Positions 10,888 to 54,893 of a stretch of 59,821 nucleotides of DNA are shown here, piece by piece. The position numbers were made by a program, and so were the translations under genes. Position 1 is the stretch's first letter. Each line of letters begins with the position of its first letter. Under the pieces are notes generated by a model. It saw only the letters and a list, made by a program, of their open reading frames with translations, was not told where the DNA came from and did no database searches. This DNA is from a virus. The DNA lies in the IMG/VR virus record IMGVR_UViG_3300018080_000197, positions 1-59,821 of that record; one strand, 5' to 3'.

Positions 10888-11809
10888 ACGGAAGATCACC
10901 AAGCGGTTGAAGGCGTTGAAAGGTCCGGTCAAACGGGGCGTGGGAACGGCTGTCTTCTGGTATGGCGGGAAGGGAATCCTGTGTAGGCGCTTGCGTCCGT
11001 TGTTCCCTCCCCACAAACGCTATGTGGAACCATTCGGAGGTGGTGCGTCCGTCCTGTTGAGCAAGGAACCCGTGGAGGTGGAAGTCTACAATGACTTGGA
11101 CTCCGGTCTGGCCGACTTCTTCAGGGTCATGGCGGACCCGGAGGTCTTCCAACGGTTCTATCGTCACATAGAAGCACTTCCTTCCTCACGACAAATCTAC
11201 CTGGAATACGTGGATACGTGGAAGCGCGAGAGGGACCCGGCCGTTCGTGTGGCCAAGTGGTTCGTGGTTGCCCGGCAATCCTTCAACGGCAGATTCGGGA
11301 AAGGTTGGCGGTTCGATAGCCAACGAACCATCATGGGGTGTGGTCAGGCCGTGCGCGCGTGGCTTCAGGCCGTGGAGAAGCTTCCGGAGATTCATTTCCG
11401 ATTGCTTCACGTCCAAGTGGAGAACGACGACTTCAGGGAGATTCTGCCCCGCTATGACACGCCAGATACCCTCTTCTATTGTGATCCTCCCTACGTTCAT
11501 GCCACGCGCGGCGAAGTCAGGTATGACTTGGACATGCCGGACGATGACCATAGGGAACTGGTTGACATGCTATTGAAGTTGAAGGGAATGGTTGCCCTGT
11601 CCGGGTATGCCAATACCTTGTATACCGTTCTGGAAGACAACGGCTGGAACCGTAGGGATTTGGTGGTGACGTGTCCCTCCGCCAGCAGAGACTACGGGAC
11701 AGGCAACATCCCCAGAGGGGAGAGAACGGAATCCCTGTGGAGGAATCCGCAGGCAATGAAGGCGTGGAAGCTGGCCAAGGCCAGAAAACCACTTGTCATA
11801 GGGAGATAG
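10877..11809 (+). CDS. dam: Dam-type (D12 class) N6-adenine DNA methyltransferase
   Basis: 310 residues. The SAM site FGGGAS follows WYGGKG, the usual D12-class N-terminal motif, and the catalytic DPPY lies at residues 203-206. A GTG start at 10877 follows ggagga at 10864-10869, and the gene overlaps the primase end. The N terminus is MCPERKITKR, another ITK peptide, absent from ordinary Dam enzymes. It should methylate adenine in phage DNA, acting alongside the guanine modification genes downstream. The target site cannot be read from the sequence. Confidence 0.9.
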   Translation: MCPERKITKRLKALKGPVKRGVGTAVFWYGGKGILCRRLRPLFPPHKRYVEPFGGGASVLLSKEPVEVEVYNDLDSGLADFFRVMADPEVFQRFYRHIEALPSSRQIYLEYVDTWKRERDPAVRVAKWFVVARQSFNGRFGKGWRFDSQRTIMGCGQAVRAWLQAVEKLPEIHFRLLHVQVENDDFREILPRYDTPDTLFYCDPPYVHATRGEVRYDLDMPDDDHRELVDMLLKLKGMVALSGYANTLYTVLEDNGWNRRDLVVTCPSASRDYGTGNIPRGERTESLWRNPQAMKAWKLAKARKPLVIGR

Positions 11810-11811
11810 GA

Positions 11812-12522
11812 ATGGCTCGACGACGAATCACCAAGAAGCCGCGACCGGAAGCCGTTGTGGGGCGCGCGGTCACGTCCCCGGAACATGACTTCAGCGGGAA
11901 GGGAGGTCATTGGGGACGCAATGCCGCAGAACTGAAACGGTTGGTTGCGGAATACGAGAAGGTCCCTCTGGACAGTCTCCGGCCGTGGAAGGACAACCCC
12001 CGGATCAACACAGAGGCTATCCCCGTGGTGGCCGAGCTAATCAAGCAGCACGGCTTCGCCGGGGTAGTAGTAGCTACGCCGGACGGCGTGATACGCGCGG
12101 GACACACACGCTATGCCGCTCTGGTTTCCCTCCAGCAGGACCCGGACTTTGCTGGGGAGAAAGGGACGGTCTGGGTTCACTGGAAGAACTTCCCCACAGA
12201 GACGGCGGCGGAAGCTTATGCCCTTGCAGACAACAAGTCCGCAGAACGCGCCGACTGGGATCATGCCAAGCTGGCCAGATTGTTCAAGCAACGGAACACG
12301 GCGGACCTGGAGACCTTGCGCCAGTTCTCCGGGTTCAAGCAGCGGGAGATAGACTGGCACAGCGGACCCAGAATAGACCCGGAGAAGCTTCCTGACTTTG
12401 AAGTTCCAGCCAAGAGCTACACGGTCCGGATAGACAACGTTGACCCGGACGATTGGGAGACTGTTCTGGAACTGGTCAACAAGGCGTTGGAGGACACGGG
12501 ATATGCTGCCCAAGTTTACTAG
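11812..12522 (+). CDS. ParB/Srx-fold nuclease-like protein
   Basis: 236 residues. The ParB N-terminal domain is clear: VPLDSLRPWKDNPR, then a GHTRYAAL box, the GHxR motif conserved in ParB and related CTPase/nuclease-fold proteins, then ALADNKSAERADWD. The N terminus is MARRRITKKPR, an ITK peptide. Phages often place ParB-like proteins beside DNA methylases. Here it lies between the Dam-type gene and DpdA and overlaps DpdA by 20 bases. It could target or regulate modification; that is inference. Confidence 0.82.
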   Translation: MARRRITKKPRPEAVVGRAVTSPEHDFSGKGGHWGRNAAELKRLVAEYEKVPLDSLRPWKDNPRINTEAIPVVAELIKQHGFAGVVVATPDGVIRAGHTRYAALVSLQQDPDFAGEKGTVWVHWKNFPTETAAEAYALADNKSAERADWDHAKLARLFKQRNTADLETLRQFSGFKQREIDWHSGPRIDPEKLPDFEVPAKSYTVRIDNVDPDDWETVLELVNKALEDTGYAAQVY

Positions 12523-13549
12523 GCACGGTCACTCCGATTACGTCCACGTTTTGGTTGCCTACAACTACCTCCGGGGGAAGGACGGCATAGACCAGATACG
12601 CAGACTGACTAACAACCCCAACCTGTGCGTGTTGCTGGACAGCGGCGCTTTCATTGCCCACAGAACCCAAAAGGACATTGACCTCCAGGAGTATATGGAT
12701 TTCGTCCGGGAGGTGGGTCCGGAACTGTTCGGCTACTTTGCGCTGGACGTGATAGGCGACGTTGACGCCACGCTGCGTAACCTGGAGACCATGCGGGAGG
12801 CAGGGTTGACGCCGTGGCCTGTCTTCCAAATCAGCACAGACCGTGCGGATTTCAGGACCACAACGGAGGGCGCCTCCGTAGTGGGTATAGGTGGACTGAA
12901 TGAGCGGGTGTGGCCTTGGACCAGAAGCGCCAGATTGTCATACCTGAAGATGATGCGGGAATGGTCCCTGGACGCCGGAGTAGGTCTGCACTTGCTAGGA
13001 TATGCGGACCCGCCGGTTCTGGAGGCGTTCCAGCCGTTTTCGGCGGACTCCAGCACTTGGTTCAACGGACAGAGGTATGGGAGGGTGTTCCTCTACGCCG
13101 GACGTGGGAAATGGTTGCGGCTCTATAGGGACAATTGGCGCAAGAAGATGACTCCTGAAGCGGAATTGGAAATCACGCGGGCAGGCTACAGCGTGGCGGA
13201 CCTGGAGAATCCGGAACTGTGGACCAACACCCGCGAGAACTCGGAATCCGGAACCAACTTCTTGGCCAATCTCATGGCGCGTTCATGGGTCAAATTCTCA
13301 CTGGAGTTCTTTGCCCAGTTCACGATACGGGTGTTTCTGGTGGCGGATTCGGGAATACGTCACGGGAATCAATACCCCTTGATCCGGGAGGCTGGGAGGA
13401 TTCTTGGACGTTCTTCCCCAGCGACGGGGGAGACCTCACCGCGGCGGATAACCAAGACCCGGAAAGCCACAGACCGGGGAGTTCACGTCAAGAAGGGAAC
13501 GCCTGTGGAGTTCCCTGTAGTCAGACCACAACGGAGGTTTGGAGAATGA
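12503..13549 (+). CDS. dpdA: DpdA-like DNA guanine transglycosylase (7-deazaguanine insertion)
   Basis: 348 residues from ATG 12503, with ggagg about ten bases upstream. DpdA is a TGT-fold enzyme that exchanges guanine in DNA for a 7-deazaguanine base such as preQ0. The sequence has LLDSGAF (Asp46, the likely general base), FALDVIGD, VGIGGL, HLLGYADP and ADSSTWFNG (Asp182, the likely nucleophile position). This is the DpdA set and lacks the tRNA-TGT zinc cluster. The following genes make its substrate. The C-terminal tail contains RRITKTRK (ITK at 316-318), outside the TGT core. It overlaps queC by ATGA. Confidence 0.88.
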   Translation: MLPKFTRHGHSDYVHVLVAYNYLRGKDGIDQIRRLTNNPNLCVLLDSGAFIAHRTQKDIDLQEYMDFVREVGPELFGYFALDVIGDVDATLRNLETMREAGLTPWPVFQISTDRADFRTTTEGASVVGIGGLNERVWPWTRSARLSYLKMMREWSLDAGVGLHLLGYADPPVLEAFQPFSADSSTWFNGQRYGRVFLYAGRGKWLRLYRDNWRKKMTPEAELEITRAGYSVADLENPELWTNTRENSESGTNFLANLMARSWVKFSLEFFAQFTIRVFLVADSGIRHGNQYPLIREAGRILGRSSPATGETSPRRITKTRKATDRGVHVKKGTPVEFPVVRPQRRFGE

Positions 13550-14262
13550 GCGAGAAACGTTGCGTGTTGGCCCTTAGCGGAGGAATGGATTCCTCCACGC
13601 TGTTGTATCACTTGCTGGAAAGGGACTGGGAAGTCTCCTGTCTGGCATTCGACTACGGACAGCGCCACAAGAAGGAACTGGAGTGCGCACGCCAGATAGG
13701 GAGGTGTGCAGGAGTCCAGGTCTCCACTGTGAATCTGGGAGACATGGCGCGTGTCATCTTCCCCACGGAATGTCTCACAGGGGGTCCAGAGGAAGTCCCG
13801 GACGGTCCGTTCACGGGCGCTTCCATGCGGGTGACTGCTGTTCCCAATCTGGCCATGATCCTGATTTCAATCTGCGCGGGACACGCCATTTCCATCGGAG
13901 CAAAAGCTCCAAGTGGCTACCACGTGGAAGCCTACATGGTAGCATTCGGTTGCCACAAGCGTGAGACGTGGACCTACCCTGATAACAGGGTAGCATTCAC
14001 ATACCCTATGATAGAAGTGCTTTCCAAGTGCTACTATGAACCTGTGGAACTCCTGACGCCGTTTGTGGGTATGTCCAAACAGGCCGTGTTACGGAAGGGA
14101 CTGGACCTACATGTTCCGTTTCACAGGACGTGGACGTGCTACAACGGGATAGGTCTTCCCTGCGGCAAATGTGGCGCGTGCATGGAGCGTCTGGAAGCCT
14201 TTCGTCTGAATGGACGGCCGGACCCGTTGAAATACAGGGACGAATCCGGCTGTTGTGGTTAG
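13546..14262 (+). CDS. queC: QueC, 7-cyano-7-deazaguanine (preQ0) synthase
   Basis: 238 residues. It converts 7-carboxy-7-deazaguanine to preQ0 using ATP and ammonia. SGGMDSS at 11-17 is the PP-loop. The zinc site is Cys198, Cys206, Cys209 and Cys212 (the GLPCGKCGAC region). The length is that of stand-alone QueC, with no added glutamine amidotransferase domain such as the Gat-QueC of phages that make archaeosine-like bases. It starts at ATGA overlapping the dpdA stop. Confidence 0.95.
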   Translation: MSEKRCVLALSGGMDSSTLLYHLLERDWEVSCLAFDYGQRHKKELECARQIGRCAGVQVSTVNLGDMARVIFPTECLTGGPEEVPDGPFTGASMRVTAVPNLAMILISICAGHAISIGAKAPSGYHVEAYMVAFGCHKRETWTYPDNRVAFTYPMIEVLSKCYYEPVELLTPFVGMSKQAVLRKGLDLHVPFHRTWTCYNGIGLPCGKCGACMERLEAFRLNGRPDPLKYRDESGCCG

Positions 14263-14368: not shown

Positions 14369-14845
14369 ATGGTTACGGTCACTGTGGTTTTGAGGTGGGA
14401 AGCTGCACACAGACTCCAGAAGGTGGACAGCAAGTGCAATTCCCTGCATGGACACTCCTACAGGGCAGACATTACCGTAGGGTGTCACTGTCTGAGCGAA
14501 GCCGGGATGGTCATGGACTTCGGGGAGTTGAAGGAACTGCTATGGGCACACGTTGTCAAACCGTGGGATCACGCTATCCTTTTGTGGGAGGAAGACGTTG
14601 AACTGCACAGCATGGCTATCCATATGGGAAACAAGTTGGCTATCTTCCCCGACGACGTCACAGCGGAGTGTCTGGCGGAGACCTTGCTGTCCAAGTGTAA
14701 GGGCAGACTATTGGCATACATGGACAAGACAGCCACGGGAGGCAGTGGGTTGTTCGTGTCCCGAGTCAAAGTCTTCGAGACGGACTCCTGTTGGGCGGAA
14801 GCGGTCAACGACGGGATTTCGCAAGGAAGGCCGGTGACACCATGA
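14369..14845 (+). CDS. queD: QueD, 6-carboxy-5,6,7,8-tetrahydropterin synthase
   Basis: 158 residues. It turns 7,8-dihydroneopterin triphosphate, the FolE product, into 6-carboxytetrahydropterin. Zinc ligands are His14, His27 and His29, with the catalytic Cys23 in CNSLHGHSY. The DFGELKELL and WDHAILL motifs are also present. The ATG at 14369 follows ctggagg. It overlaps queE by ATGA. Confidence 0.95.
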   Translation: MVTVTVVLRWEAAHRLQKVDSKCNSLHGHSYRADITVGCHCLSEAGMVMDFGELKELLWAHVVKPWDHAILLWEEDVELHSMAIHMGNKLAIFPDDVTAECLAETLLSKCKGRLLAYMDKTATGGSGLFVSRVKVFETDSCWAEAVNDGISQGRPVTP

Positions 14846-15615
14846 TAGTCCAGAACATCTTTGTCAGTGTGGAGGGCGAAACTACTCTGGGAGGTCCTTT
14901 GCAGTGGACTACGTTCGTGCGCTTCAAAGGGTGTAATCTCCGCTGCTGGAAGGATTCCGGCGGGTGTGATGCTCCGGAGGCATTGGACGGCCGTGTAGAG
15001 TATGCTTGTGAGGAACAAACTCCAGAGAAATTCGCCAGTCACATTGTCTGGGGAATGAAGATAGGACACTATCCCAAACGCCTGACCCTTACAGGGGGAG
15101 AACCCCTTCTCCAGGAAGAGGACCTGTTGGAGTTTGTCCATTTGGTCCGCGAAGACGTGCTGGGTCCCGTGGAAGTGTGTCTGGAAACCAATGGGTCCGT
15201 GCCTCTTTCCGAGGTGGTTTGCAAGGTTATGGATTGCATCATCATGGACTTGAAACCGCCTTCCAGCGGAGAATCTGAACACGTCTGCTGGGAGAATCTT
15301 CAACGGCTGGAACCCGAAGATTTCGTCAAGGTAGTGGTCTCCACTGTAGAGGACCTGGAATGGGCGGCCAAAGCATGGTGGGTCAATGCTCCACTGTGGA
15401 ATGACCGGAATGTTCAAGCGCCGGGATGGTCCATAGGCGCTAAGATGGAATCAAGTATTATGTCGTCGAAGGATCAACCGTTATGGGCTACAGCATATAC
15501 AGGACTCACTCCCCAGCAGATAGCAGACTGGATACGCCAGCATGGTATGTGGAAATGGCGTCTGAACCTCCAGTGTCACCGCTGGTTGTGGCCGTGGGAA
15601 ACGGAGGGAGTCTAA
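14842..15615 (+). CDS. queE: QueE, 7-carboxy-7-deazaguanine synthase (radical SAM), unusual cluster motif
   Basis: 257 residues. QueE rearranges 6-carboxytetrahydropterin to 7-carboxy-7-deazaguanine using a 4Fe-4S cluster and SAM. The N terminus IFVSVEGE and the TLTGGEPLLQ SAM-binding segment are diagnostic. The cluster ligands are Cys31, Cys35 and Cys42, giving CX3CX6C instead of the usual radical-SAM CX3CX2C: four extra residues (KDSG) lie between the second and third Cys. All other core motifs look intact, so I expect an active enzyme. Confidence 0.92.
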   Translation: MIVQNIFVSVEGETTLGGPLQWTTFVRFKGCNLRCWKDSGGCDAPEALDGRVEYACEEQTPEKFASHIVWGMKIGHYPKRLTLTGGEPLLQEEDLLEFVHLVREDVLGPVEVCLETNGSVPLSEVVCKVMDCIIMDLKPPSSGESEHVCWENLQRLEPEDFVKVVVSTVEDLEWAAKAWWVNAPLWNDRNVQAPGWSIGAKMESSIMSSKDQPLWATAYTGLTPQQIADWIRQHGMWKWRLNLQCHRWLWPWETEGV

Positions 15616-16091
15616 TGGGCGTCTTCGGCGGCGCGCAAGGTCTGGCGGATTTCATACAGAACCTGGACGGTCTGTTCGGATTCATCCGGACGGTCAAGGC
15701 ACACCCGGAGTTCCACTTCCTCACGAATGATACGACCGGCCTGTGTGAGGGACGCTATGAACTCTGGATAAGCGTGGAGTGGGAAGAGAAGATGTTGCTC
15801 CTATTGAAGCCGTCCACACGGGAGGGACTGACCGGCAAAGTCCACCTAGCCACTGCTCAGAATAGCGCCAGTTCGCGAATAGAGGTCAAGTTCCAGAAGT
15901 GGTTCCAGAACTGTGGACGTATTTGCACCCTGGAAACGTTGACCATTCTGGGGCAGGCCATTGCAGACGCTACGGACGGGATAGTAGCGCTGGACAAACG
16001 GAAACAGGAGATAGTGTGCAACAGACCCACGGCTGAACTCCTAAAGTCGGCCGACGAGGTGGAGAATGGGAAAGATACTGACAAAAGATGA
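15615..16091 (+). CDS. Hypothetical protein, 158 aa, in the queE operon
   Basis: Not recognised. ATG 15615 overlaps the queE stop as taatg and follows ggagggag. The protein appears alpha/beta with a helical N terminus (LADFIQNLDGLFGFI) and no clear catalytic motif. Tight coupling to queE makes it a candidate for a modification accessory role, but nothing in the sequence proves it. Confidence 0.7.
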   Translation: MGVFGGAQGLADFIQNLDGLFGFIRTVKAHPEFHFLTNDTTGLCEGRYELWISVEWEEKMLLLLKPSTREGLTGKVHLATAQNSASSRIEVKFQKWFQNCGRICTLETLTILGQAIADATDGIVALDKRKQEIVCNRPTAELLKSADEVENGKDTDKR

Positions 16092-16626
16092 ATCCTTCCG
16101 GTTGTATCAATTGGGCGCATTCGGGAACCGCGTCAAACAGTGGGATAGCCTTCCGGCTGTGTGGAGGGATGATACCTACCACGGGAAGATAGTCATACGG
16201 TCCAGGAAAGGGGGAGGCGGACCCTGCCGATATGACATTGATCCCACGTGGAACGCTGTCAATGACGAACTCCAGAAACCCAAATGGGCAGGACACCACA
16301 GATACGTGTTCTTCAATCAGGCTATCCCCGTTGACCGGATAGTCCTGAACGCCGAAGTAGCGGACCTTCCCCAGCCTCCGGGACTGGTCATGGCGTATTC
16401 CACTCTAGCTACCCATATGCGCACGGCGTTGAAACAAGCGTGCAGGGTAGCGCAGGGTTGGGAGGTCATACGGATCATACGTAGCGTGTGTGATCCCGTA
16501 GCGGCGGATTGTCTGGAGGCGCTGTTAGCGGAGTATCCATCCCACGCCGTGGAGTTCACGGTTTTGGACAGGTCCATAGGGGACCTGGGCTGGAATACCA
16601 TAGTGTGGGAGGTCAGGGCATACTAG
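16066..16626 (+). CDS. Hypothetical protein, 186 aa
   Basis: Not recognised. It has an alpha/beta pattern, with a His-rich centre (WAGHHRYVFFN) and a long helix (HMRTALKQACRVAQGW). It overlaps the preceding gene by 26 bases, and gaggtgg precedes ATG 16066. It sits in the modification gene block and could act there. Confidence 0.7.
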   Translation: MGKILTKDESFRLYQLGAFGNRVKQWDSLPAVWRDDTYHGKIVIRSRKGGGGPCRYDIDPTWNAVNDELQKPKWAGHHRYVFFNQAIPVDRIVLNAEVADLPQPPGLVMAYSTLATHMRTALKQACRVAQGWEVIRIIRSVCDPVAADCLEALLAEYPSHAVEFTVLDRSIGDLGWNTIVWEVRAY

Positions 16627-16639
16627 CGGAGGAATCACA

Positions 16640-16933
16640 ATGGAACCGCATATAGTGGCCGAAATTCACAATGCAAGACTGGTCTGTTTTGACAAGACGT
16701 GGGGACAGAATCCCCCGCAAACGGAACAGATAACCATTCTGGAAATCAAGCAACAGGACGCTATGGGGGAAACCGCATGGCGTGAAGTCCTGCGCTTGGT
16801 AGATGGAAGAGTAGGCAAATCGGGTAGTTCCCCAAGCGTCAATACACTAAAATGGGCTGTGGACCTGTTGGTTCAATTGGTGGCTTCTGCACACTACGTA
16901 AAGGAAGAGGGAACGGATGTTGATACTGATTGA
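16640..16933 (+). CDS. Hypothetical protein, 97 aa
   Basis: A small acidic protein with a good ribosome site (ggagga, 16628-16633). No motif is recognised. It overlaps the HAD phosphatase start by 17 bases. Confidence 0.65.
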   Translation: MEPHIVAEIHNARLVCFDKTWGQNPPQTEQITILEIKQQDAMGETAWREVLRLVDGRVGKSGSSPSVNTLKWAVDLLVQLVASAHYVKEEGTDVDTD

Positions 16934-17531
16934 CTGTGACGGCGTGGTAGTGGACCTGTTCTCGGCCTACTGTGACCACGTGTGTGTAGGCGGGATGCAC
17001 GAGAAGGTCCTACAGGCTATGTCCTATGGTCCCTCTGACAAAACGTGGGTCAAGGCTGTAGTCACAGCGGACAACAGACGCTTGGAGGACGTGCAGCGAA
17101 CTACGGATATCCTGTTCAACACGGTTCCCCCGGAGTGGTGGTCCTCTCTCCCAGCATACCCATACGCACGGGAGGTGGTGGAACTGTGCAAGCACTACGG
17201 GTCCGTCTGTTTTGTGACGCTGCCCTGGAAACCGTCAGACGCGGGAGGGAAGCTGGCGTGGCTGGAGAGGGAGTTCCCGGAGGTCCCGCGCGCCATTATC
17301 AGCAACCGGGAGGTTCTGGCGGCGCAAGGCGTGGTTCTGGTGGACGACAATCCGGACAACACCAAATTGTTCCGGAGAAGCGGCGGGTTCGCAGCAACCT
17401 TCCTCCAGCAGTGGACCCGGACGGCAGACAATGACGTGCAGGGTCCTTTGACGGCAGACCACAGGCTAAATGACCTGCGGGAGAAGCTGGACGCTATCTC
17501 GCGCCTGACCCGCAGACGGAAAGGAAGATGA
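16917..17531 (+). CDS. HAD-superfamily phosphatase, 5'(3')-deoxyribonucleotidase-like
   Basis: 204 residues. The first HAD motif is DCDGVVVD, with the nucleophile and acid Asp pair four to six residues after the start region. A later segment has FVTLPWKPSD and the terminal motif VLVDDNPDN. This resembles the short NT5C-type nucleotidases of phages. It could adjust nucleotide pools or remove phosphates from pathway intermediates. The C-terminal tail is basic (RLTRRRKGR). Confidence 0.78.
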   Translation: MLILIDCDGVVVDLFSAYCDHVCVGGMHEKVLQAMSYGPSDKTWVKAVVTADNRRLEDVQRTTDILFNTVPPEWWSSLPAYPYAREVVELCKHYGSVCFVTLPWKPSDAGGKLAWLEREFPEVPRAIISNREVLAAQGVVLVDDNPDNTKLFRRSGGFAATFLQQWTRTADNDVQGPLTADHRLNDLREKLDAISRLTRRRKGR

Positions 17532-17532
17532 C

Positions 17533-17907
17533 ATGGGAATGGTGATAACCGAACTGGGAAACGCCGAGGATTGGCGGTTCGTTCGGGCGGAAAAGACAGC
17601 AGAAGACGGCAACGTGGAGTTCCGCTGGGTCGCCAGCAAGCGGCGCGTGTTCAATGAGGAGTCCCCGGACGGGACTTGGTGGCAAACGGACGTGATTCTC
17701 CGCGTGGAGAATGACGACGTCGCCGCCTACGGCGTCAGGATAGAGAAGGGGGATTCCGTTGGAGAGAAAGGACGGCCGGACCCCTTCCCCACGTGGGTAG
17801 TGATGATGTTGGCCGGGTTCAAGACCACTTTTCTGGAGCAGGGTCAAGGGCAGGCGCAGTCTCCCATAGTGGGGATTGACGGGAAACCCGTGGCCGGAGT
17901 GAACTAA
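17533..17907 (+). CDS. Hypothetical protein, 124 aa
   Basis: A beta-rich small protein with several Trp residues, no recognised family. It starts one base after the HAD gene and overlaps the next gene as taatg. Confidence 0.65.
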   Translation: MGMVITELGNAEDWRFVRAEKTAEDGNVEFRWVASKRRVFNEESPDGTWWQTDVILRVENDDVAAYGVRIEKGDSVGEKGRPDPFPTWVVMMLAGFKTTFLEQGQGQAQSPIVGIDGKPVAGVN

Positions 17908-18203
17908 TGGCTAAGGGCAAGTCTACTCCCAGAGGGAAGCTTCAGTGGAGATTCGGACGCCTTCAGAAGCAATTCGAGAAGGCCAAAAAGCTGAACCCGG
18001 ATGACCCGGAGGATTGTGTCATGCCTCTGGGTTCTCACGCGGGGAAGACTCTGGGAGAGATTGCGGATGATGACGAAGGATTACTGTATCTGGACTACAT
18101 AGTAGGGCAGTGGGATGAAAGTCCGCTGGTCCAGAAGGTTTGCAGGGTTCTGGAGACGCCGGAAAGACAGGAACGTCTCCGCAGATTGTTGGAGGACGGA
18201 TGA
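17907..18203 (+). CDS. DUF3820-like small protein, 98 aa
   Basis: The centre VMPLGSHAGKTLGEIADDD...LYLDYIVGQW matches the pattern of the DUF3820 family (small proteins with a G-x-x-x-G-K-x-L core followed by a YL-W helix), often found near nucleases and in phages. Function is unknown. It overlaps the MazG-like gene as ATGA. Confidence 0.55.
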   Translation: MAKGKSTPRGKLQWRFGRLQKQFEKAKKLNPDDPEDCVMPLGSHAGKTLGEIADDDEGLLYLDYIVGQWDESPLVQKVCRVLETPERQERLRRLLEDG

Positions 18204-18586
18204 TTCCGTCTGGAAAGGCTACAGAAATGGATAGAGGACCATTGAAGTGTCCGTTGACCGTCAATGCCATAATGGTGGAGGCGGATGCCCACGCGCACGA
18301 AGCGGGGTTCAGGGATTCCACGCATACGGCCACATTCGGAGAACACATAGCCTTGTGTCACTCCGAATTGTCGGAGGCGCTGGAGGCATTCCGCAAGGAT
18401 GGTATGGTCTCCATGCGCTTCACGGACAGCGGCAAGCCGGAGGGAGTAGGGGAGGAACTGGCCGACGTGATTATCCGCGTCTGTGACATGGCCATGTTGT
18501 TCAATATCCCCCTGGAGGATTGCATCCGTCACAAGATGCTATACAACCGCACGCGCCCCAAGCATCACGGCGGGAAGTCCATTTGA
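18200..18586 (+). CDS. MazG-like nucleotide pyrophosphohydrolase
   Basis: 128 residues from ATG 18200, preceded by ggagga. It has the all-alpha NTP pyrophosphatase metal motifs: CHSELSEALEAFR (paired Glu) and GVGEELADVIIRVCDMA (E-E-x-x-D). Such enzymes hydrolyse dNTPs or NTPs. In phages MazG may alter nucleotide or alarmone pools. Here it lies just before the FolE fusion, which consumes GTP. An alternative start at 18228 is possible. Confidence 0.8.
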   Translation: MIPSGKATEMDRGPLKCPLTVNAIMVEADAHAHEAGFRDSTHTATFGEHIALCHSELSEALEAFRKDGMVSMRFTDSGKPEGVGEELADVIIRVCDMAMLFNIPLEDCIRHKMLYNRTRPKHHGGKSI

Positions 18587-18622
18587 CCCACACGGGTGAT
18601 TCCGTCTGGAGGGAGAACAAAC

Positions 18623-19648
18623 ATGCCGGAAACCACTAACGCACCAGTAGTTCCCAGACAACACGTAATGACGTGGCAAGAAGCATTGGCCCGATTGAAG
18701 GTCCTGGACGTGGACAAGCTGGGTCACAGAGTCTACGGAGTCCCGCGCGGGGGAATGTGTCTGGCCACGTTGCTGGCTCACGCCACTACCACGCACGTTC
18801 CCAGCCAAGCGGATATCATCCTGGACGATATCATTGACTCCGGACAGACACAGCGCAACTACAGGAACAAGTATCCGCAGGCGCGGTTCGTCGCCATTGT
18901 GGACAAGACCACGGACGGCTACACGTCCAAACACGTCACCCTGCCGGAACTGTGGCGCGCCGCCGCTGCTGGGGGTGAGAGCATCCCCGAGGACCCGCAC
19001 ACGTTTCCGGTGGACAAAGACATGGGCTGGATTACGTTCCCGTGGGAGATAGACGGGAAGGGCGATCCAGAGACGGCGGAAGGGCGGATAGCTGCGCAGG
19101 ATTCCGTGATACGCCTTCTCCAGTTCATGGGGGAGAATCCTCTGAGACAGGGACTGAAGGACACGCCGGACCGCGTGTTACGGATGTATCAGGAGTTGAC
19201 CAGTGGCTACGGAGAGAACCCCACAGCCCATTTGAAGGCGGCGTTTGACTCCGAATGTGATGAAATGGTAGTTGTCCGGGGAATCCGTTTCACGTCCCTG
19301 TGTGAACACCATCTTCTCCCCTTCACGGGGGACGTGGCTATCGGCTACCTCCCAGCCAACGGCCGTGTGGTCGGCCTGTCCAAGCTGGTCCGCGTGGTAG
19401 ACACACTGGCCAAGCGGCTCCAGATTCAGGAGCGGTTGACGGGGGAGATAGCGCAGACCATCATGGGGTTGGCCGGGGGATTGCACCCGTTGGGAGTGGG
19501 AGTGGTGGTCCAGGCGCGGCATTCGTGTATGGGTTGCCGCGGTGTCAAACGTCCGGAATCAGAGGCTGTTACCTCCGCTATGCTGGGGGTTTTCCGCGAA
19601 AAGCCGGAGGTCCGGTCTGAATTCCTGTCTTTGGTGAGGGACAAGTAG
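18623..19648 (+). CDS. folE: Phosphoribosyltransferase-GTP cyclohydrolase I fusion
   Basis: 341 residues with two domains. The N-terminal part (to about 150) is a type I phosphoribosyltransferase: VYGVPRGG, then the PRPP loop IILDDIIDSG at 65-74, then DKDMGWITFPWE at its end. The rest is GTP cyclohydrolase I: NPLRQGLKDTPDRVLRMY, the zinc and catalytic CEHHLLPF (Cys227, His230) and RHSCMGCRG (Cys302). FolE makes 7,8-dihydroneopterin triphosphate from GTP, the first step towards preQ0. The PRTase half could salvage a purine base to a nucleotide and so feed GTP supply; this is inference. Both halves keep their key residues. ATG 18623 follows ggaggga. Confidence 0.92.
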   Translation: MPETTNAPVVPRQHVMTWQEALARLKVLDVDKLGHRVYGVPRGGMCLATLLAHATTTHVPSQADIILDDIIDSGQTQRNYRNKYPQARFVAIVDKTTDGYTSKHVTLPELWRAAAAGGESIPEDPHTFPVDKDMGWITFPWEIDGKGDPETAEGRIAAQDSVIRLLQFMGENPLRQGLKDTPDRVLRMYQELTSGYGENPTAHLKAAFDSECDEMVVVRGIRFTSLCEHHLLPFTGDVAIGYLPANGRVVGLSKLVRVVDTLAKRLQIQERLTGEIAQTIMGLAGGLHPLGVGVVVQARHSCMGCRGVKRPESEAVTSAMLGVFREKPEVRSEFLSLVRDK

Positions 19649-19804
19649 CGCAAACAGGACGGATTACTGTGGAGAAATTCCAACAATCCCTAGATACTTA
19701 TAGACCTGTATTGTTCTGTTTAGTAGTTGTAAAGTTGTCAACAAGACGATACAGTATTGTAGAGGTCTAGGGATTGTTGGAAGAATCCCAGTGGAGGGAG
19801 AATA
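19649..19804. promoter_or_regulatory. AT-rich control region A with 17-bp inverted repeat and possible promoter
   Basis: Perfect 17-base inverted arms lie at 19678-19694 and 19766-19782, each carrying the aatccctaga core. Between them is an unusually AT-rich segment with gtattgttctgttta at about 19708-19722. A plausible sigma70-type promoter is TTGTAA at 19727-19732 and TACAGT at 19750-19755 with a 17-base spacer. The same elements recur at 59084-59183. An operator, a promoter for the genes from 19805, or a replication origin would all fit. Confidence 0.6.
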
Positions 19805-20479
19805 GTGTCAGTCAAGAGGTTGAAACGGAAACGGTGTCCACTCTGTGGGCAGGAATGGGGGATTAGCGCATGGACCCCCAATCCGCATTTGGCGGACGGG
19901 CTGTGGCATTGGTGTAACGCCTGTCTGTTCACATACAAGACGGCCATGCGGGAGAGCAAGGACTCCCTGGAGCGCGCCAAGCTCCGGAGGCAATACAGGA
20001 ACGCCTATCACAGGGCCTACAACAAGGCAGTGGCCGGGAGGGAGAGAAACATCCGGAAGGCCGTCAGAGGGCGGCGCATGGGAAGAAAGGTTCTCCAGGC
20101 AGTCTTGTCCAAGAAACTGACCGTGGAGGTTCTGCGGCGGGAATCCGTGTATGCGGAGTTCATGCGGCTTCTCCCCCAATTGCGGAAGACCCCCACGTGG
20201 ACCCTCTTCGAGGACCAGATTCTGGCCCGTTATGAGAAGGAAGCGGAGGACATGTTGGAACCCAGTCCTACCGAGAAGGTCAGGGTCTATAGGTTCTTGC
20301 CGGAGGAAGTCTACCCGGAGTTGGCATTGGCTACGTTCAATTGCTCCGTGGCCGTGGGGAACAGAATAGCGTCACAGCCCACAAGACCAGCCACGTGGGA
20401 GGATGATGCTAAAGAGTCTCTGGTCAGGCTGTCACAAGCCATAGCGGAGGTGGGATACTATGTCATACCAGAAGCTTAG
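19805..20479 (+). CDS. Hypothetical zinc-ribbon protein, 224 aa
   Basis: GTG 19805 follows ggagggag at 19793-19800. The N terminus has CPLC and CNAC pairs, a likely zinc site like that of HNH-adjacent or recombination-endonuclease proteins, followed by a long Arg/Lys-rich helix. No HNH catalytic motif is visible. It is the first gene after control region A, which suggests a role early in its transcript. It may bind DNA. Confidence 0.7.
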   Translation: MSVKRLKRKRCPLCGQEWGISAWTPNPHLADGLWHWCNACLFTYKTAMRESKDSLERAKLRRQYRNAYHRAYNKAVAGRERNIRKAVRGRRMGRKVLQAVLSKKLTVEVLRRESVYAEFMRLLPQLRKTPTWTLFEDQILARYEKEAEDMLEPSPTEKVRVYRFLPEEVYPELALATFNCSVAVGNRIASQPTRPATWEDDAKESLVRLSQAIAEVGYYVIPEA

Positions 20480-20825
20480 GAAGTTCCGGGTAATGGCCGG
20501 GTTCAACGTGGAGGACGGGATAGTAGGAATCATGTATTCCGGGGACACGTTGGTGGTGGATAGGGCCAGCGGACTGGACCGCGTGGTCAGGGGCTCCGTG
20601 GAGGTAGGCGGACCCGTGAGGTTCCTGGAATTCGGGAAGCGCGTGGCACGCGCATTCATGGAAGACCCGGAGAAGGATATCCGGACGGCCAAGGTCTACG
20701 CCGGGAAGTTCCGGTTGGCCGTGGGAGACGTGACGCTGGACAAGTGGTGTTCAGGTCTCCAGGAACTGTTCAAGGACGGTGTGCAGTTCCACCGCGTAAC
20801 CAAAATGAACCGTCTAATGTGCTAG
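20460..20825 (+). CDS. Hypothetical protein, 121 aa
   Basis: A beta-rich N terminus (VEDGIVGIMYSGDTLVV) with a helical end. No family is recognised. It overlaps the previous gene by 20 bases, with cggaggtgg upstream. Confidence 0.65.
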   Translation: MSYQKLRKFRVMAGFNVEDGIVGIMYSGDTLVVDRASGLDRVVRGSVEVGGPVRFLEFGKRVARAFMEDPEKDIRTAKVYAGKFRLAVGDVTLDKWCSGLQELFKDGVQFHRVTKMNRLMC

Positions 20826-20852
20826 CGGCCGAACTGAACGGAGGTCAACGGA

Positions 20853-21569
20853 ATGAAGTTCTCACGAGCCAATCTTCAGGTAGTGAGAGTGGTTACACGG
20901 AATAAGGCGGACACGGTTCTCCGGCAGGTCCGGATAGACGCGGACGGGACAACCGTTGCTTCTGACGGAAACGCGGTCATGGCCGTGGAACCCGTGAGCG
21001 AGGACACCATCCGTGAGGAATCCGCCCTTCCGGCCTTCGCGTCTGAAACGGACGTTCCGGAGGACGGGGTAGGACTGGTCCCGGAAGTGGTCACGGAAGC
21101 CATACGGAATCTCCCCAAGGGGAACCTGGCCTTGGAACTGGGGTTCGTGGTCCTGACGGACTGTTCGGAGAAGGAGCAGCAGGTAGCTTTGACTACCACG
21201 GACCTGAAGATGAATAAGACCGTGGAAGGCTACATGGCGCGCAAGCGCTTCCCGGAGTGGCGAAGCATCCTGAAGCGGATCAAGCGCCGTTCCACACGCA
21301 AGGTCTGCCTCCACAGGAAGTCGTTGATTCGGTTGTTGAATGCTGTTGACGCGGCTTGCCCGGCCGGGGAGCCATTGGTCTTCCTGGAGTTCTCGGACAC
21401 GCCGGAGACGGACGGCATTCTTCTACGCGCCGTGGCCGTGGAGACGGGGCAGAGAGTCATAGGCTATCTTATGCCTATGGATACGGGAGAGGACTGGTTG
21501 AAGCTGTCCCCGTGGGAGCAGTCCGTGTTTGCCCGCGCTATCAAGCGGTTGAAGGGAGGAAGGGTATGA
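20853..21569 (+). CDS. Putative DNA sliding-clamp-like protein (beta-clamp fold)
   Basis: 238 residues. The start (FSRANLQVVRVV) and the VRIDADGTTVASDGNAVMAVEPV strand pair resemble the N-terminal domain of DnaN-type clamps, where a similar 'ATDGHRLA' loop occurs. A second domain begins near KVCLHRKSLIRLLNAV. The length would fit a two-domain clamp. The resemblance is by pattern only. A clamp would raise polymerase processivity. A 20-base leader including the ATG is identical to that of the gene at 56802. Confidence 0.45.
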   Translation: MKFSRANLQVVRVVTRNKADTVLRQVRIDADGTTVASDGNAVMAVEPVSEDTIREESALPAFASETDVPEDGVGLVPEVVTEAIRNLPKGNLALELGFVVLTDCSEKEQQVALTTTDLKMNKTVEGYMARKRFPEWRSILKRIKRRSTRKVCLHRKSLIRLLNAVDAACPAGEPLVFLEFSDTPETDGILLRAVAVETGQRVIGYLMPMDTGEDWLKLSPWEQSVFARAIKRLKGGRV

Positions 21570-21799
21570 AGTTCCCTTTGGAAGATGTTGGACGTGTGTG
21601 TCCTGTATGCGGACACTTCATGGGCAGCCTGCGGGTGACTGTCTGGCGAGGGAAGTCCATGCGTCTGGACAGTTACAGAATCTGTCTCTGCTGTGGGAGG
21701 GGCAGTTTCCAGAAGTGCTACGGGTGTGATAGGTCTACCCGTGGACGGATCAACTACAGGGGACGGGTTCTCCCCTGTTGCCCGGACTGTTTGTTCTGA
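21566..21799 (+). CDS. Multi-zinc-ribbon small protein, 77 aa
   Basis: Contains four Cys pairs (CPVC, CLCC, CYGC, CCPDC), enough for two zinc sites, with basic residues between. It starts by ATGA overlap with the previous gene, preceded by gggagga. Likely a small DNA, RNA or protein-binding adaptor; no family is assigned. Confidence 0.7.
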   Translation: MKFPLEDVGRVCPVCGHFMGSLRVTVWRGKSMRLDSYRICLCCGRGSFQKCYGCDRSTRGRINYRGRVLPCCPDCLF

Positions 21800-21829
21800 C
21801 CAAGAGGTTGAAGACTGGAGGTCCGAGGA

Positions 21830-22015
21830 ATGCCATTGTGGTGGAGACGCTTGAAGGTGCGGATACGGCTGTGGTTCCTCCGGAGGAAGTTGCGGAGGTG
21901 TCAACGTGCATTCAACAAGTGGGCGGAGGCGCTGTCTGAGACCACACGCGCGGTCAAGTCCCTGCTGGACTACAGGGATGACCTGCGCGACGAGGGTTAC
22001 AGGGATGACGGATAG
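21830..22015 (+). CDS. Hypothetical basic protein, 61 aa
   Basis: A highly basic, Trp-containing amphipathic N terminus (WWRRLKVRIRLWFLRRKLRR) followed by a helical acidic end. It could associate with membranes or nucleic acids. The ribosome site ggaggtccgagg precedes ATG 21830. It overlaps the next gene by 11 bases. Confidence 0.55.
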   Translation: MPLWWRRLKVRIRLWFLRRKLRRCQRAFNKWAEALSETTRAVKSLLDYRDDLRDEGYRDDG

Positions 22016-22400
22016 GCGGAGAATCACCAAGCGCAGAAAGGCGGAGTCCGAGGACTTGTCCGGTCCCGTCCCTGCGGCCAATAGGGACGCTGGCGCTGGT
22101 GGTGCGCGTGGGTATGACGTGCCATTGGTTCGCCCGGGTTGGACGGATTTTGGAGACCTGTTCAATGAGGACCCGGACCGTGCTATCAAGTGTCAGGGGA
22201 AACCCCATGACCTGGGCGTGCGCGTGTTTACGGGAAGGCGTGCCCCTTACAAGGGGATAGACCTGTGCTTCTACTATCATGGTCCCCTGGACGAAGCCAT
22301 ACGGTGGCTGGCGGAGAACAGGACGGCGTTCCAACGAGTGGGGAAGCGGTTAGAAGAGCTTGAATGTCAGGCGAAGAGACAGAAGGGAGGTCCACCATGA
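22005..22400 (+). CDS. Hypothetical protein with N-terminal ITK peptide, 131 aa
   Basis: Begins MTDRRRITKRRK, the ITK peptide shared with the Dam-type, ParB-like and other proteins. The rest is alpha/beta with a DLFNEDPDRAIKC segment and no recognised fold. Start ATG 22005 lies inside the preceding gene. Confidence 0.65.
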   Translation: MTDRRRITKRRKAESEDLSGPVPAANRDAGAGGARGYDVPLVRPGWTDFGDLFNEDPDRAIKCQGKPHDLGVRVFTGRRAPYKGIDLCFYYHGPLDEAIRWLAENRTAFQRVGKRLEELECQAKRQKGGPP

Positions 22401-22633
22401 GTGGAGGTTCAGCTTGTCAATGCACAGAAAGGCAAAAGCCCGTAGGAGAGAGGCAGTGGGTAGTCCGAAGATTGCGTTGTCACTACTCCGCGTTTGCGGG
22501 GTATAGATGCACGTGGTCCGAGTTCTCCGCCGTGCAGTGTCTGGCTTGCGGACGGCTGTGGAGAACCAAGGCCGCTTATGTGGATTTCCTGACGCACCAA
22601 CCGTGGCTTGAAGAGGTAGCGCAGGACTCATAG
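22397..22633 (+). CDS. Hypothetical Cys-rich protein, 78 aa
   Basis: ATG 22397 overlaps the previous stop as ATGA and follows gggagg. The protein has CQC, two separated Cys and CLACGRLW, likely a zinc-binding fold. Function unknown. Confidence 0.6.
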   Translation: MSGGSACQCTERQKPVGERQWVVRRLRCHYSAFAGYRCTWSEFSAVQCLACGRLWRTKAAYVDFLTHQPWLEEVAQDS

Positions 22634-22655
22634 GGGGTCTTGTCCGGGAGACAAC

Positions 22656-22907
22656 ATGTCTGCTGCGGCTAGGGGAGAACAAGGGAGGCGACCCCGTCAC
22701 CTCCAAAAGCTAGACAAGGACAGTGGTGTTCTCGCTCCACCATGTCCGGACGGTAATGGTCGAAACGAGTTCCGGCTCTTCAGGACATTCCGGCCGGAAC
22801 ACGGTTGCCTCCGGGGAACCGTCAATCGTCCTCCCTCTCCCCAGCTTTCCATAAGGATTGGCGCGCGTGTGAAAGCGGAACGGGGCGGTCCCGTTCCGTG
22901 CAGATAG
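22656..22907 (+). CDS. Doubtful small ORF, 83 aa
   Basis: An open frame from ATG 22656 after cgggaga fills an otherwise empty 298-base gap. It is Arg/Pro rich and has no recognisable features. It ends inside the 3' arm side of a hairpin at 22876-22898. It may be chance coding in a non-coding stretch. Confidence 0.3.
   Translation: MSAAARGEQGRRPRHLQKLDKDSGVLAPPCPDGNGRNEFRLFRTFRPEHGCLRGTVNRPPSPQLSIRIGARVKAERGGPVPCR
22876..22898 (+). other. 9-bp hairpin upstream of 22932
   Basis: Perfect arms 22876-22884 and 22890-22898 around a 5-base loop. No U-run follows, so it is not a classical terminator. It lies 34 bases before the ATG at 22932 and could be a processing or regulatory structure. Confidence 0.4.
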
Positions 22908-22931
22908 ATAGTCATTTGGTTGGAGACTGAC

Positions 22932-23225
22932 ATGTCAGAGACACCCGTAGAAGGGAGCAGCGAAGTGACGTCGTATGCGATCAAGGGAACCTTTGGTCGC
23001 GGGAAGTCTGAGTTGGGGCAAGAAGTTCTGGAGACGTTGGCCGGAACCTTGCAGGCGGAATCCCCCGTGGCGGCGCTGCAAAGCGTGGTCAAGGACATCG
23101 GAGGGGAGAACAACTACAGGAACGTGGGCGTGTTCTGGATGCGCGGCGACCTGTATGTCTTCTCGGCCGTGGCCGTGGAGTGCGAACCCCAGTTGGTGGG
23201 GATAGCCACAATTCAGGAAGTGTGA
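22932..23225 (+). CDS. Hypothetical protein, 97 aa
   Basis: Start ATG 22932 is chosen because ggag at 22922-22925 is correctly spaced; the in-frame TTG at 22920 is not. An alpha/beta small protein with no family. It is the last gene before a strong terminator. Confidence 0.65.
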   Translation: MSETPVEGSSEVTSYAIKGTFGRGKSELGQEVLETLAGTLQAESPVAALQSVVKDIGGENNYRNVGVFWMRGDLYVFSAVAVECEPQLVGIATIQEV

Positions 23226-23240
23226 CCGGGAGAGACGGAA

Positions 23241-23282
23241 CGGGGAGGGTAGGTCTCACGGACCTGCCTTCCCCGCTGTTTT
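23241..23282 (+). terminator. Rho-independent terminator
   Basis: A 16-bp stem (23241-23256 with 23260-23275, including three G-U pairs) around a 3-base loop, followed by ctgtttt. It ends the transcript that contains the gene at 22932. Confidence 0.85.
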
Positions 23283-23323
23283 GGGGAGTGGCAAAAATTT
23301 CTCTGGAAAAATTGAAAAAGTGG

Positions 23324-23352
23324 TTGACAAGGGGCAGATAAGGGGCTATATT
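23324..23352 (+). promoter_or_regulatory. Strong sigma70-type promoter
   Basis: TTGACA at 23324-23329, a 17-base spacer and TATATT at 23347-23352, in AT-rich surroundings directly after a terminator. Transcription should start near 23359 and serve the small-gene operon to 27027. This is one of the best promoter matches in the window and implies use of host RNA polymerase. Confidence 0.85.
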
Positions 23353-23401
23353 CTATAACATGGTAAGGGACATTCAGACAACCCAAACGGAGACCAAAGG
23401 A

Positions 23402-23635
23402 ATGGCATTCAAGGCATACATCCGGTTTGAAGAGAATGGGGAAGACAGGCTGTTGCGGGTCTTCCCCCGGTCCAAGAAGGTCCACACGTTCAGGACACAA
23501 GACGCCGCACAGAAGGCGCTTGAACGGAAGACTAGCGACTGGAAGCGTCCTATCAAGTGTGGCCACGTGGTTCCGGCCGGGTTCGGCGCTGTTCACACGT
23601 GGGATTGGTCTCGGGTTTTCAATGTTGCTCTTTAG
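23402..23635 (+). CDS. Hypothetical protein, 77 aa (first gene of accessory operon)
   Basis: The frame is open from ATG 23360, but that codon coincides with the predicted transcription start. ATG 23402 after aaagga is therefore preferred. It has a short beta-rich start (FKAYIRFEENGEDRLLRVF) and a basic middle. Unknown function. Confidence 0.65.
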   Translation: MAFKAYIRFEENGEDRLLRVFPRSKKVHTFRTQDAAQKALERKTSDWKRPIKCGHVVPAGFGAVHTWDWSRVFNVAL

Positions 23636-23660
23636 GAGTGTAACTGTGGAGGTCCAGGGG

Positions 23661-23918
23661 ATGCACAAGAAGCGGGACGGATACGGAGTGACGGGATACT
23701 GTGGTGGGATCACAGCCACAGTGGCCGTCTTCGGGGTTAGGGGAGACGCGGACAGGCTCAGACGTGTTCTGCGCAGTCCCCGCGGTGTGGCCGGGACATG
23801 GAACGGTCCTGTGCGCATGGCTACTCTGGCGCGTGCTATCCCGTTCTGCAAGGGATGGTCCGTGGCGCGGATAGTCAAGGCGTGGGATGACCACAAGCTT
23901 CCGACGTGGAGGGGATAG
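23661..23918 (+). CDS. Hypothetical protein, 85 aa
   Basis: ATG 23661 after ggagg. It is Gly/Arg/Val rich, with YCGGITATVAVFGV suggesting beta strands. No family is recognised. Confidence 0.6.
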   Translation: MHKKRDGYGVTGYCGGITATVAVFGVRGDADRLRRVLRSPRGVAGTWNGPVRMATLARAIPFCKGWSVARIVKAWDDHKLPTWRG

Positions 23919-23919
23919 G

Positions 23920-24252
23920 ATGGAGCCCGTAGCTAAAATCAGAACGTGGAAGGATTTGGTAGTGGCGTCTGGCGGGAAGATACTCGGGACGCATGAAGCC
24001 ATGAGCCGCTCCCATTACACGGAAGTGGAAGCCTCAGACGGCTTTAGTTTTACGGTCAGGGATTCCAGCCACGGAAACTGGCGAACGAATGCTACCAGAC
24101 GGGAGACCACGGTCAATATTCGCACAGGGAAATGGGCGTTGCGGCAAATAGCTATCAATCTGGGTTACAACGCGAAGCAGCTCAAAGGATTGAACCTGGA
24201 TACCATTCGTGACATGACGCTTCTGGCGTCCAAGGAAAGAGCTAGTGTCTGA
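23920..24252 (+). CDS. Hypothetical protein, 110 aa
   Basis: ATG 23920 follows gaggggata. It has a beta-rich middle and a C-terminal helical pair (LRQIAINLGYNAKQLKGL). It overlaps the next gene by 8 bases. Not recognised. Confidence 0.6.
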   Translation: MEPVAKIRTWKDLVVASGGKILGTHEAMSRSHYTEVEASDGFSFTVRDSSHGNWRTNATRRETTVNIRTGKWALRQIAINLGYNAKQLKGLNLDTIRDMTLLASKERASV

Positions 24253-24487
24253 TTACCTGAACCAGTATCTGGAGGTTCCGCGCGGGACGGTTCTTCGGGA
24301 GACCCGGAGAGCCGTCCTGATCCAGTGGGAACAGAGTGTGACTGGTTCCAAGAAAACGGCTGTCTGGGTCCCCCGTTCCGTCCTCCGGGAGGTGCGGAAG
24401 GGACCCTTTCCTCCCCAGCGGTTCCTACCCCGCTGGTTTCTACGCAAACGTGGTCTAGGCTGGTTGGTAGGCCAGTCTGAGATTTGA
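24245..24487 (+). CDS. Hypothetical basic protein, 80 aa
   Basis: GTG start at 24245. A short beta-strand region (TVLRETRRAVLIQWEQ) resembles small SH3-like phage proteins, then a basic Pro/Arg end. Function unknown. Confidence 0.55.
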   Translation: MSDYLNQYLEVPRGTVLRETRRAVLIQWEQSVTGSKKTAVWVPRSVLREVRKGPFPPQRFLPRWFLRKRGLGWLVGQSEI

Positions 24488-24502
24488 TTGGAGGTCCAGG
24501 GA

Positions 24503-53826: not shown

Positions 53827-54885
53827 ATGTCCAAATTCGTTCCCAGAAACGTCATCCCTCTTCCCAGCGGCGCGTATGTCCGTGGGGCAGACGCCACCAC
53901 GGGAAGGTTGATTCGCACCACGTCCGGGAATGAAATCACGGACCTCCGGTTGGTGTTGGATAGGGCGCCATGCCGTTACAAAACCGGGGACGCATTGGCT
54001 ATCAATGACTGGTTGACGCCGGAGGACCCCGGTCTGTTCGATAGCTGGTTGCTCAAACAATGGGATTCCCAACTCCGTTGTGTCTGGAGACTGGACGAGA
54101 CCGGGACCCCCACAGAAATGGCGGACGCCACTGGGGGAGGTTCCTCCCTGGAAGTGGTCAACGGCGGGTCCATGACGTTTGGCAACGCGGGTATCCACGG
54201 CAACGCTGTAAACACCAACGCCGCTGGATACTTCAAGATAAGGGCAGACGCTATCAATGGTATGCTTCAGGCTCCCCCGGACAATGACCCTGACAAGGGG
54301 ATAGGGGAATTCACCATCAGCCTTTGGATACGACGGGCCACAATTCCAGCGTATAACACTGAATACACCCTCTTCCACATAGACGACTCCGCTAGGGACA
54401 TTCGTGGGTATTACTATTGTAATGCCACTCCGGGAGCGTCTTATCTGCGGATGGTAGCTGGCCTAGGCTACACCTTCTACTATGTAGAACCATCCGTTCT
54501 GTTCGACGGGAACTGGCACAACGTGGTCTTCTCTCGTGAGTTCACCTACCCGGCTACCCCCACGGCAGACCCTGACAAGGGGATAGGCAGAGTTTTCCTG
54601 GACGGGGTGATGGGCGTAGCGGATGACTATTTCATTTATGAACACGCTTGTTTCCGAACACAAGCGGACCTGACCCGTTACCTCTACATAGGGGCAGATT
54701 CGCTAGGAGCAACTCTGTGGGATGGTGAACTAGACGAAGTGACGTTCTGGTTCTCACAGGGAGAGAGAACACAAGCCACACAGGTGGACGCCTCCCTATC
54801 CTACAGGGGCACAGTCTCACTCTACAACCCTCCGGTCCCCACGTTTCCATTCACTAACGGAACCGGGAGGTTCTACAACCCCTAG
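53827..54885 (+). CDS. LamG/concanavalin-like tail protein, 352 aa
   Basis: ATG 53827 after gggagga. The C-terminal part has the LamG pattern (FTISLWIRRA, DGNWHNVVFSRE, VFLDGVMG, LYIGADSLGA, GELDEVTFWF). The N-terminal adaptor is unlike that of the 47452 gene. Probably a second sugar-binding virion protein. Confidence 0.77.
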   Translation: MSKFVPRNVIPLPSGAYVRGADATTGRLIRTTSGNEITDLRLVLDRAPCRYKTGDALAINDWLTPEDPGLFDSWLLKQWDSQLRCVWRLDETGTPTEMADATGGGSSLEVVNGGSMTFGNAGIHGNAVNTNAAGYFKIRADAINGMLQAPPDNDPDKGIGEFTISLWIRRATIPAYNTEYTLFHIDDSARDIRGYYYCNATPGASYLRMVAGLGYTFYYVEPSVLFDGNWHNVVFSREFTYPATPTADPDKGIGRVFLDGVMGVADDYFIYEHACFRTQADLTRYLYIGADSLGATLWDGELDEVTFWFSQGERTQATQVDASLSYRGTVSLYNPPVPTFPFTNGTGRFYNP

Positions 54886-54893
54886 GAGATTCC

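Follow-up and report, generated by a model that had tools for sequence, protein, structure and literature searches.

We found that the gene for GTP cyclohydrolase I (FolE) in a viral preQ0 cluster encodes a two-domain protein, in which a compact domain resembling xanthine-guanine phosphoribosyltransferase (XGPRT) precedes the FolE domain in a single reading frame. The fusion is real, conserved, functionally linked and assembled from known parts. We propose, at a probability of about 0.5, that the protein is a two-domain pathway enzyme whose N-terminal half (N half) recycles the guanine released by DpdA to GMP in a 7-deazaguanine DNA-modification system. The order of the two domains is present in public records, yet it is apparently undescribed in the literature searched.

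Results

The fusion gene lies in a predicted preQ0/DpdA cluster

The window, by which we mean the whole stretch of 59,821 nucleotides that was analysed, carries dpdA, queC, queD and queE together with the gene for the phosphoribosyltransferase (PRTase)-FolE fusion (Table 1). DpdA, QueC, QueD, QueE and FolE form the minimal set that has been tied to dPreQ0 in DNA (PMC6884629), and the window is predicted from its genes to encode a 7-deazaguanine DNA-modification system of the preQ0/DpdA type. Between queE and the fusion gene lie a 5'-nucleotidase-like (NT5C) gene (16917-17531) and a gene for a MazG-like pyrophosphatase (18200-18586), for which a nucleotide-handling role in the preQ0 pathway is possible. 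Directly 5' of dpdA, genes for a D12-class N6-adenine DNA methyltransferase and a ParB-like protein were found (10877-11809 and 11737-12522), which points to a possible second DNA modification in the phage. No DNA-level relatives of positions 15000-24500 of the window were found among phages.

Table 1. Positions in the window of the preQ0-cluster genes and of the domains and motifs of the fusion protein
Feature	Position	Strand	Basis
DpdA-like DNA guanine transglycosylase	12503..13549	+	phrog_887, E 4e-23
QueC	13547..14262	+	PF06508, E 2.4e-46
QueD (6-carboxytetrahydropterin synthase)	14370..14845	+	PF01242, E 5.8e-28
QueE	14843..15615	+	phrog_2076, E 1e-29
PRTase-like domain fused to GTP cyclohydrolase I	18623..19648	+	341 aa, ATG 18623 to stop 19648
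Compact XGPRT-like domain, residues 1-142	18623..19048	+	profile against PDB XGPRT, and model
PPi loop GVPRGG, residues 39-44	18737..18754	+	motif in aligned rows
PRPP loop DDIIDSGQT, residues 68-76	18824..18850	+	motif in aligned rows
Lys95	18905..18907	+	HMMER alignment to Lys115 of E. coli XGPRT
Base-pocket motif WITFPWE, residues 136-142	19028..19048	+	aligned to WIEQPWD 134-140 of XGPRT
GTP cyclohydrolase I domain with CEHH and C302 zinc-site motifs	19100..19636	+	PF01227, E 1.1e-65

The open reading frame (18596/18623 to 19648, plus strand) has zero internal stops, and inspection of the sequence places a ribosome-binding site, GGAGGGAG, just 5' of the ATG at 18623. The original prediction of one intact frame holding both a PRPP loop and a FolE domain was borne out, as DDIIDSG (residues 68-74), CEHH (residues 227-230) and RHSCMGC are all present. 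A frameshift or stop between the halves, which it had named as the counter-evidence to look for, was not found: the frame is open, and the PRTase-FolE order recurs widely in independent contigs and sequenced isolates, which rules out a frameshift or an assembly join. The N half is under purifying selection, with dN/dS of about 0.03-0.30 in close pairs and a weaker constraint than that on the FolE half; these values and the invariant motifs rule out that it is a degenerate passenger.

An inverted repeat with 43-nt arms, 74% complementary and separated by a 19-nt gap, was found just 3' of the fusion gene (19678-19782) and precedes the next gene, at 19805. The strand around it folds far better than its shuffles (-55.6 kcal/mol, z -5.8). 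The repeat matched no Rfam family, and the exact 15-mer of its arms does not occur again within the window.

The fusion recurs in many phages and is annotated only as GTP cyclohydrolase

The window is not alone in carrying the fusion. A search for the same domain order elsewhere recovered it from over 100 viral contigs, with IMG/VR giving more than 100 distinct fused loci, and from 31 annotated phages. The latter were identified by tblastn with the N half alone and are phages of Pseudomonas, Vibrio, Stenotrophomonas, Variovorax and Xanthomonas; by tblastn, the fusion was present at more than 80% coverage in 33 phage records. The fused proteins in the annotated rows are named only 'GTP cyclohydrolase', and a large group of proteins with this plain label therefore carries an overlooked half. 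The paper on Sphingomonas phage MMDA13 names FolE and gives no second domain (PMC7472734), and phosphoribosyltransferases go unmentioned in the 2019 survey of 7-deazaguanine genes in phages (PMC6884629). No description of the PRTase-FolE order was found in the literature searched, a 2023 follow-up (doi 10.1093/nar/gkad657) lying outside that search. Mapped onto a tree of 166 FolE domains, PRTase presence switches about 25 times in total, and at least 8 of these changes are forced by well-supported branches, a pattern to be expected of an accessory module that can be reused.

The C-terminal half is, by its sequence, a normal zinc GTP cyclohydrolase I, predicted to carry out the first step of preQ0 synthesis from GTP. 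It matched the Pfam GTP_cyclohydroI model (PF01227) at 220.8 bits against a cut-off of 27, and the NCBIfam folE model TIGR00063 at 203.6 against 181.6, which is above the curated threshold. The zinc-site residues C227, H229, H230, H300 and C302 are invariant in 46 relatives.

The N half resembles a compact XGPRT with its flexible loop deleted

As a single sequence, the N half had no Pfam match and matched weakly to PHROG 8995 'phosphoribosyl transferase' (2e-7) and to the NCBIfam xanthine PRTase model (1.5e-7). Among its 46 relatives, however, 35 matched PF00156 (Pribosyltran) and 41 the xanthine PRTase model. When a profile of the 46 N-half domains was compared to solved structures, the best matches were the XGPRTs 5xtk, 6kp5 and 1a95 (E 2e-12 to 4e-11). 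AlphaFold2 models of the whole protein (pLDDT 86.4) and of the N domain alone (pLDDT 84.5) were confident except at roughly residues 99-130. The N-domain model aligned to E. coli XGPRT (4jls_I) over 104 residues at 2.9 A with Z 11.1 and 27% identity; the top ten rows of the structural comparison were all XGPRT (Z 11.1 to 9.9), followed by other Gpt-like 6-oxopurine PRTases and then by HGPRT and PyrR (Z of 8 or less). Profile and modelled structure thus support a grouping with the xanthine-guanine PRTases and not with PyrR, HPRT or other PRTases, and the N half is predicted to be a guanine/xanthine PRTase, a shortened and compact relative of E. coli Gpt.

The ligand-site motifs are well kept across 59 aligned rows. 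In the PPi loop, G44 is present in 59/59 rows and P41 in 58/59, with R42 in 48/59 (replaced in 11); in the PRPP loop (pattern DDxxDSGxT), D68, D69, G74 and T76 are present in all 59 rows and D72 in 57. Position 95 is Lys in 49/59 rows and Arg in 6/59, and in the base pocket W136 is found in 58/59 rows and E142 in 55/59, with Asp in one more. In the alignment to XGPRT, D68 and D69 pair with the PRPP-loop acids, K95 with Lys115, and W136...E142 with Trp134...Asp140, the counterparts of which we take to hold PRPP/Mg and the 2-amino-6-oxopurine base; D72 pairs with the residue that presumably faces the purine N7. The Gpt-type base pocket supports a predicted base specificity narrowed to guanine or xanthine.

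In contrast to these motifs, the stretch of the flexible catalytic loop is about 24 residues shorter than in XGPRT. The spacing from the PPi loop to the PRPP loop is 29 residues in the window protein, with a family median of 33, versus roughly 50 in XGPRT; longer loops are retained in the stand-alone phage relatives of phiST (55) and StAshley (61). Since the N half lacks a feature that helps to define the enzyme family, XGPRT-like is its proper name, and its catalysis as a PRTase is not assured. The salvage of a purine base foreseen in the original prediction is supported in the narrower form of guanine or xanthine, while the missing loop, which that prediction had not noticed, leaves the activity uncertain.

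The PRTase domain co-occurs with preQ0 genes and dpdA

A PRTase-motif scan that was not seeded on FolE yielded, from its best 80 matches, 41 distinct loci with 3 kb flanks. Among these best matches, folE and at least two of queC, queD and queE were found in 41/41 loci and recognisable dpdA in 40/41, and the PRTase domain was not found outside preQ0 clusters. The proposed link to DNA modification was thus upheld by the close association of the domain with dpdA and the preQ0 genes. The predicted co-occurrence with dpdA was also present in the FolE-centred searches with 4 kb flanks (63 of 64 fused loci and 9 of 10 stand-alone PRTase loci), and PRTase-free FolE loci from the same searches were similar (50/52). 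No difference in dpdA content was seen between PRTase-bearing and PRTase-free phages because both samples were drawn from preQ0 phages. It follows that the PRTase is an optional module of dpdA systems, and that dpdA does not imply the PRTase. Roughly half of the phages that carry both preQ0 genes and dpdA do without the domain, which is therefore not essential; no copy was found in 23 genomes of phages chosen as PRTase-free. Two families of dpdA occur together with the domain: that of the window, and that shared by Flavobacterium phage immuto and Campylobacter phage CP220.

The PRTase domain is also found as a separate gene within preQ0 clusters, between queC and queD (locus L140), between queD and queE (L101, L108 and L118) or beside folE in other loci, including those of immuto and Brevundimonas phage StAshley; in some phages, the PRTase gene lies beside ribonucleotide reductase and a dNMP kinase. 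CP220 has a stand-alone XGPRT-like domain (CPT_0182, locus L358 2370-2783) located near a radical SAM gene and a divergent dpdA, whereas folE lies about 54 kb away. The 2019 survey placed Campylobacter phages among those lacking DpdA (PMC6884629); we found a dpdA homologue in CP220 (record position 54681-55439) that is 44% identical to the annotated DpdA of immuto. The view that no DpdA occurs beside stand-alone PRTases is mostly wrong, as the immuto protein used as query identified divergent dpdA in 7 of 15 records. With this query, dpdA was not found in L100, L137, L145, L108, L164, phiST, StAshley or a Sinorhizobium plasmid; several of these records are only short contigs. The TGT Pfam model detected none of the phage transglycosylases, so its silence means little.

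The fusion also occurs in a plasmid of Sinorhizobium chiapasense (locus L090 11411-14881) and in S. psoraleae (locus L278 7940-10891), in both cases in the order queD, PRTase-FolE fusion, queE, queC. No dpdA was found near either cluster. In the S. psoraleae fusion, the base-pocket Trp is lost and the Lys is changed, and its N domain looks as if it were decaying.

Discussion

DpdA most likely acts by base exchange (PMC6884629), and free guanine is therefore an expected by-product, proportional to modification. We infer that the N half is catalytic, that guanine is its substrate and that its role is recycling. DpdA would swap guanine in phage DNA for preQ0, with one free guanine released per modified base, and the PRTase half would turn the freed guanine and PRPP into GMP. 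Removal of the leaving guanine would pull the reversible DpdA exchange forward, and two kinase steps would convert GMP to GTP, refilling the pool for FolE. No kinases for these steps were seen in the window cluster, and they are presumably those of the host. The original prediction that the N half passes its product to FolE is chemically loose, since a PRTase would make GMP, whereas FolE uses GTP, two kinase steps away; the fusion itself therefore does not channel.

PRTase folds also serve as sensors in regulators of the PurR and PyrR type, and GFRP adjusts animal GTP cyclohydrolase. The N half could likewise be a catalytically dead ligand sensor whose binding of PRPP, GMP or a related nucleotide tunes FolE activity, a reading that we consider somewhat unlikely but the most serious of the alternatives. 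The lost flexible loop is the strongest ground for doubting catalysis, since a domain without it may bind PRPP and guanine nucleotides yet turn over poorly. Retention of the PRPP and base sites despite this deletion would suit a sensor, as would the direct joining of the N half to the first pathway enzyme in most members. However, the domain is also a separate gene, sometimes in the queC/queD or queD/queE gap rather than beside folE, and the CP220 copy is far from folE. Moreover, a sensor would not need the N7-facing acidic residue that is kept in nearly all rows.

The preQ0 face used in Watson-Crick pairing equals that of guanine, so the pocket of the N half could accept preQ0. Coupling of PRPP to preQ0 or CDG would then give a nucleotide, either for a DpdA-independent modified-dGTP route or for control of the free base. 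Such a route has been proposed for Campylobacter phages (PMC6884629), of which CP220 has a stand-alone copy, and the PRTase genes beside ribonucleotide reductase and a dNMP kinase are also consistent with it. We nevertheless regard this coupling as improbable: CP220 has a DpdA homologue, and the near-constant presence of dpdA in fused and stand-alone loci alike argues that the free base, not the nucleotide, is wanted. The N7-facing aspartate is likewise conserved though deazapurines have no N7. Taken together, the transglycosylase gene and this acidic residue weaken the original suggestion that a deazapurine base is turned into a nucleotide, and a loop-less PRTase acting on a 7-deazaguanine base in a nucleotide route (such as modified dGTP) beside DpdA transglycosylation seems more doubtful still. 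Least probable of all is a general scavenging of guanine or xanthine that is unrelated to DpdA and enlarges the GTP pool for replication and FolE, as Gpt-like enzymes do in bacteria, since such a salvage gene would be expected also in phages without DNA modification and the domain was confined to preQ0 clusters among the best 80 matches of the PRTase-seeded scan, even though the fusion persists in the Sinorhizobium clusters, near which no dpdA was found.

One guanine is discarded per modified base in phages that substitute 7-deazaguanines for guanine, and in the literature searched, no dedicated guanine recycling or pulling step is part of the 7-deazaguanine pathway. If guanine recycling by the PRTase half does occur, it would explain how some phages keep heavy modification without draining GTP. 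If active, the N half would also be a test of the flexible-loop requirement in PRTase catalysis; if inactive, it would be a new kind of FolE control.

Several known systems share parts of this arrangement. Enterobacteria phage 9g has, like the window, a GTP cyclohydrolase I domain beside queC, queD, queE and dpdA, but its FolE, which is functional (PMC6884629), has 204 aa without the PRTase half, and no PRTase domain is found elsewhere in 9g. The PHROG 8995-like proteins of Cellulophaga phage phiST, immuto and CP220 contain a homologous domain, but as a separate gene, which in immuto adjoins folE with dpdA near. The FolE proteins of Pseudomonas phage NP1, Vibrio phage VpKK5 and MMDA13 share the two-domain order within a que/dpdA cluster; they are about 37-40% identical overall to the window protein and are labelled GTP cyclohydrolase only. 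With E. coli Gpt/XGPRT (1a95, 4jls), the N half has in common the fold, the PRPP loop, the PPi loop, the Lys and the W-x-x-x-P-W-D/E base pocket, whereas it has about 24 fewer residues between the two loops and is fused to FolE. If active, it would be, to our knowledge, the smallest Gpt-type enzyme.
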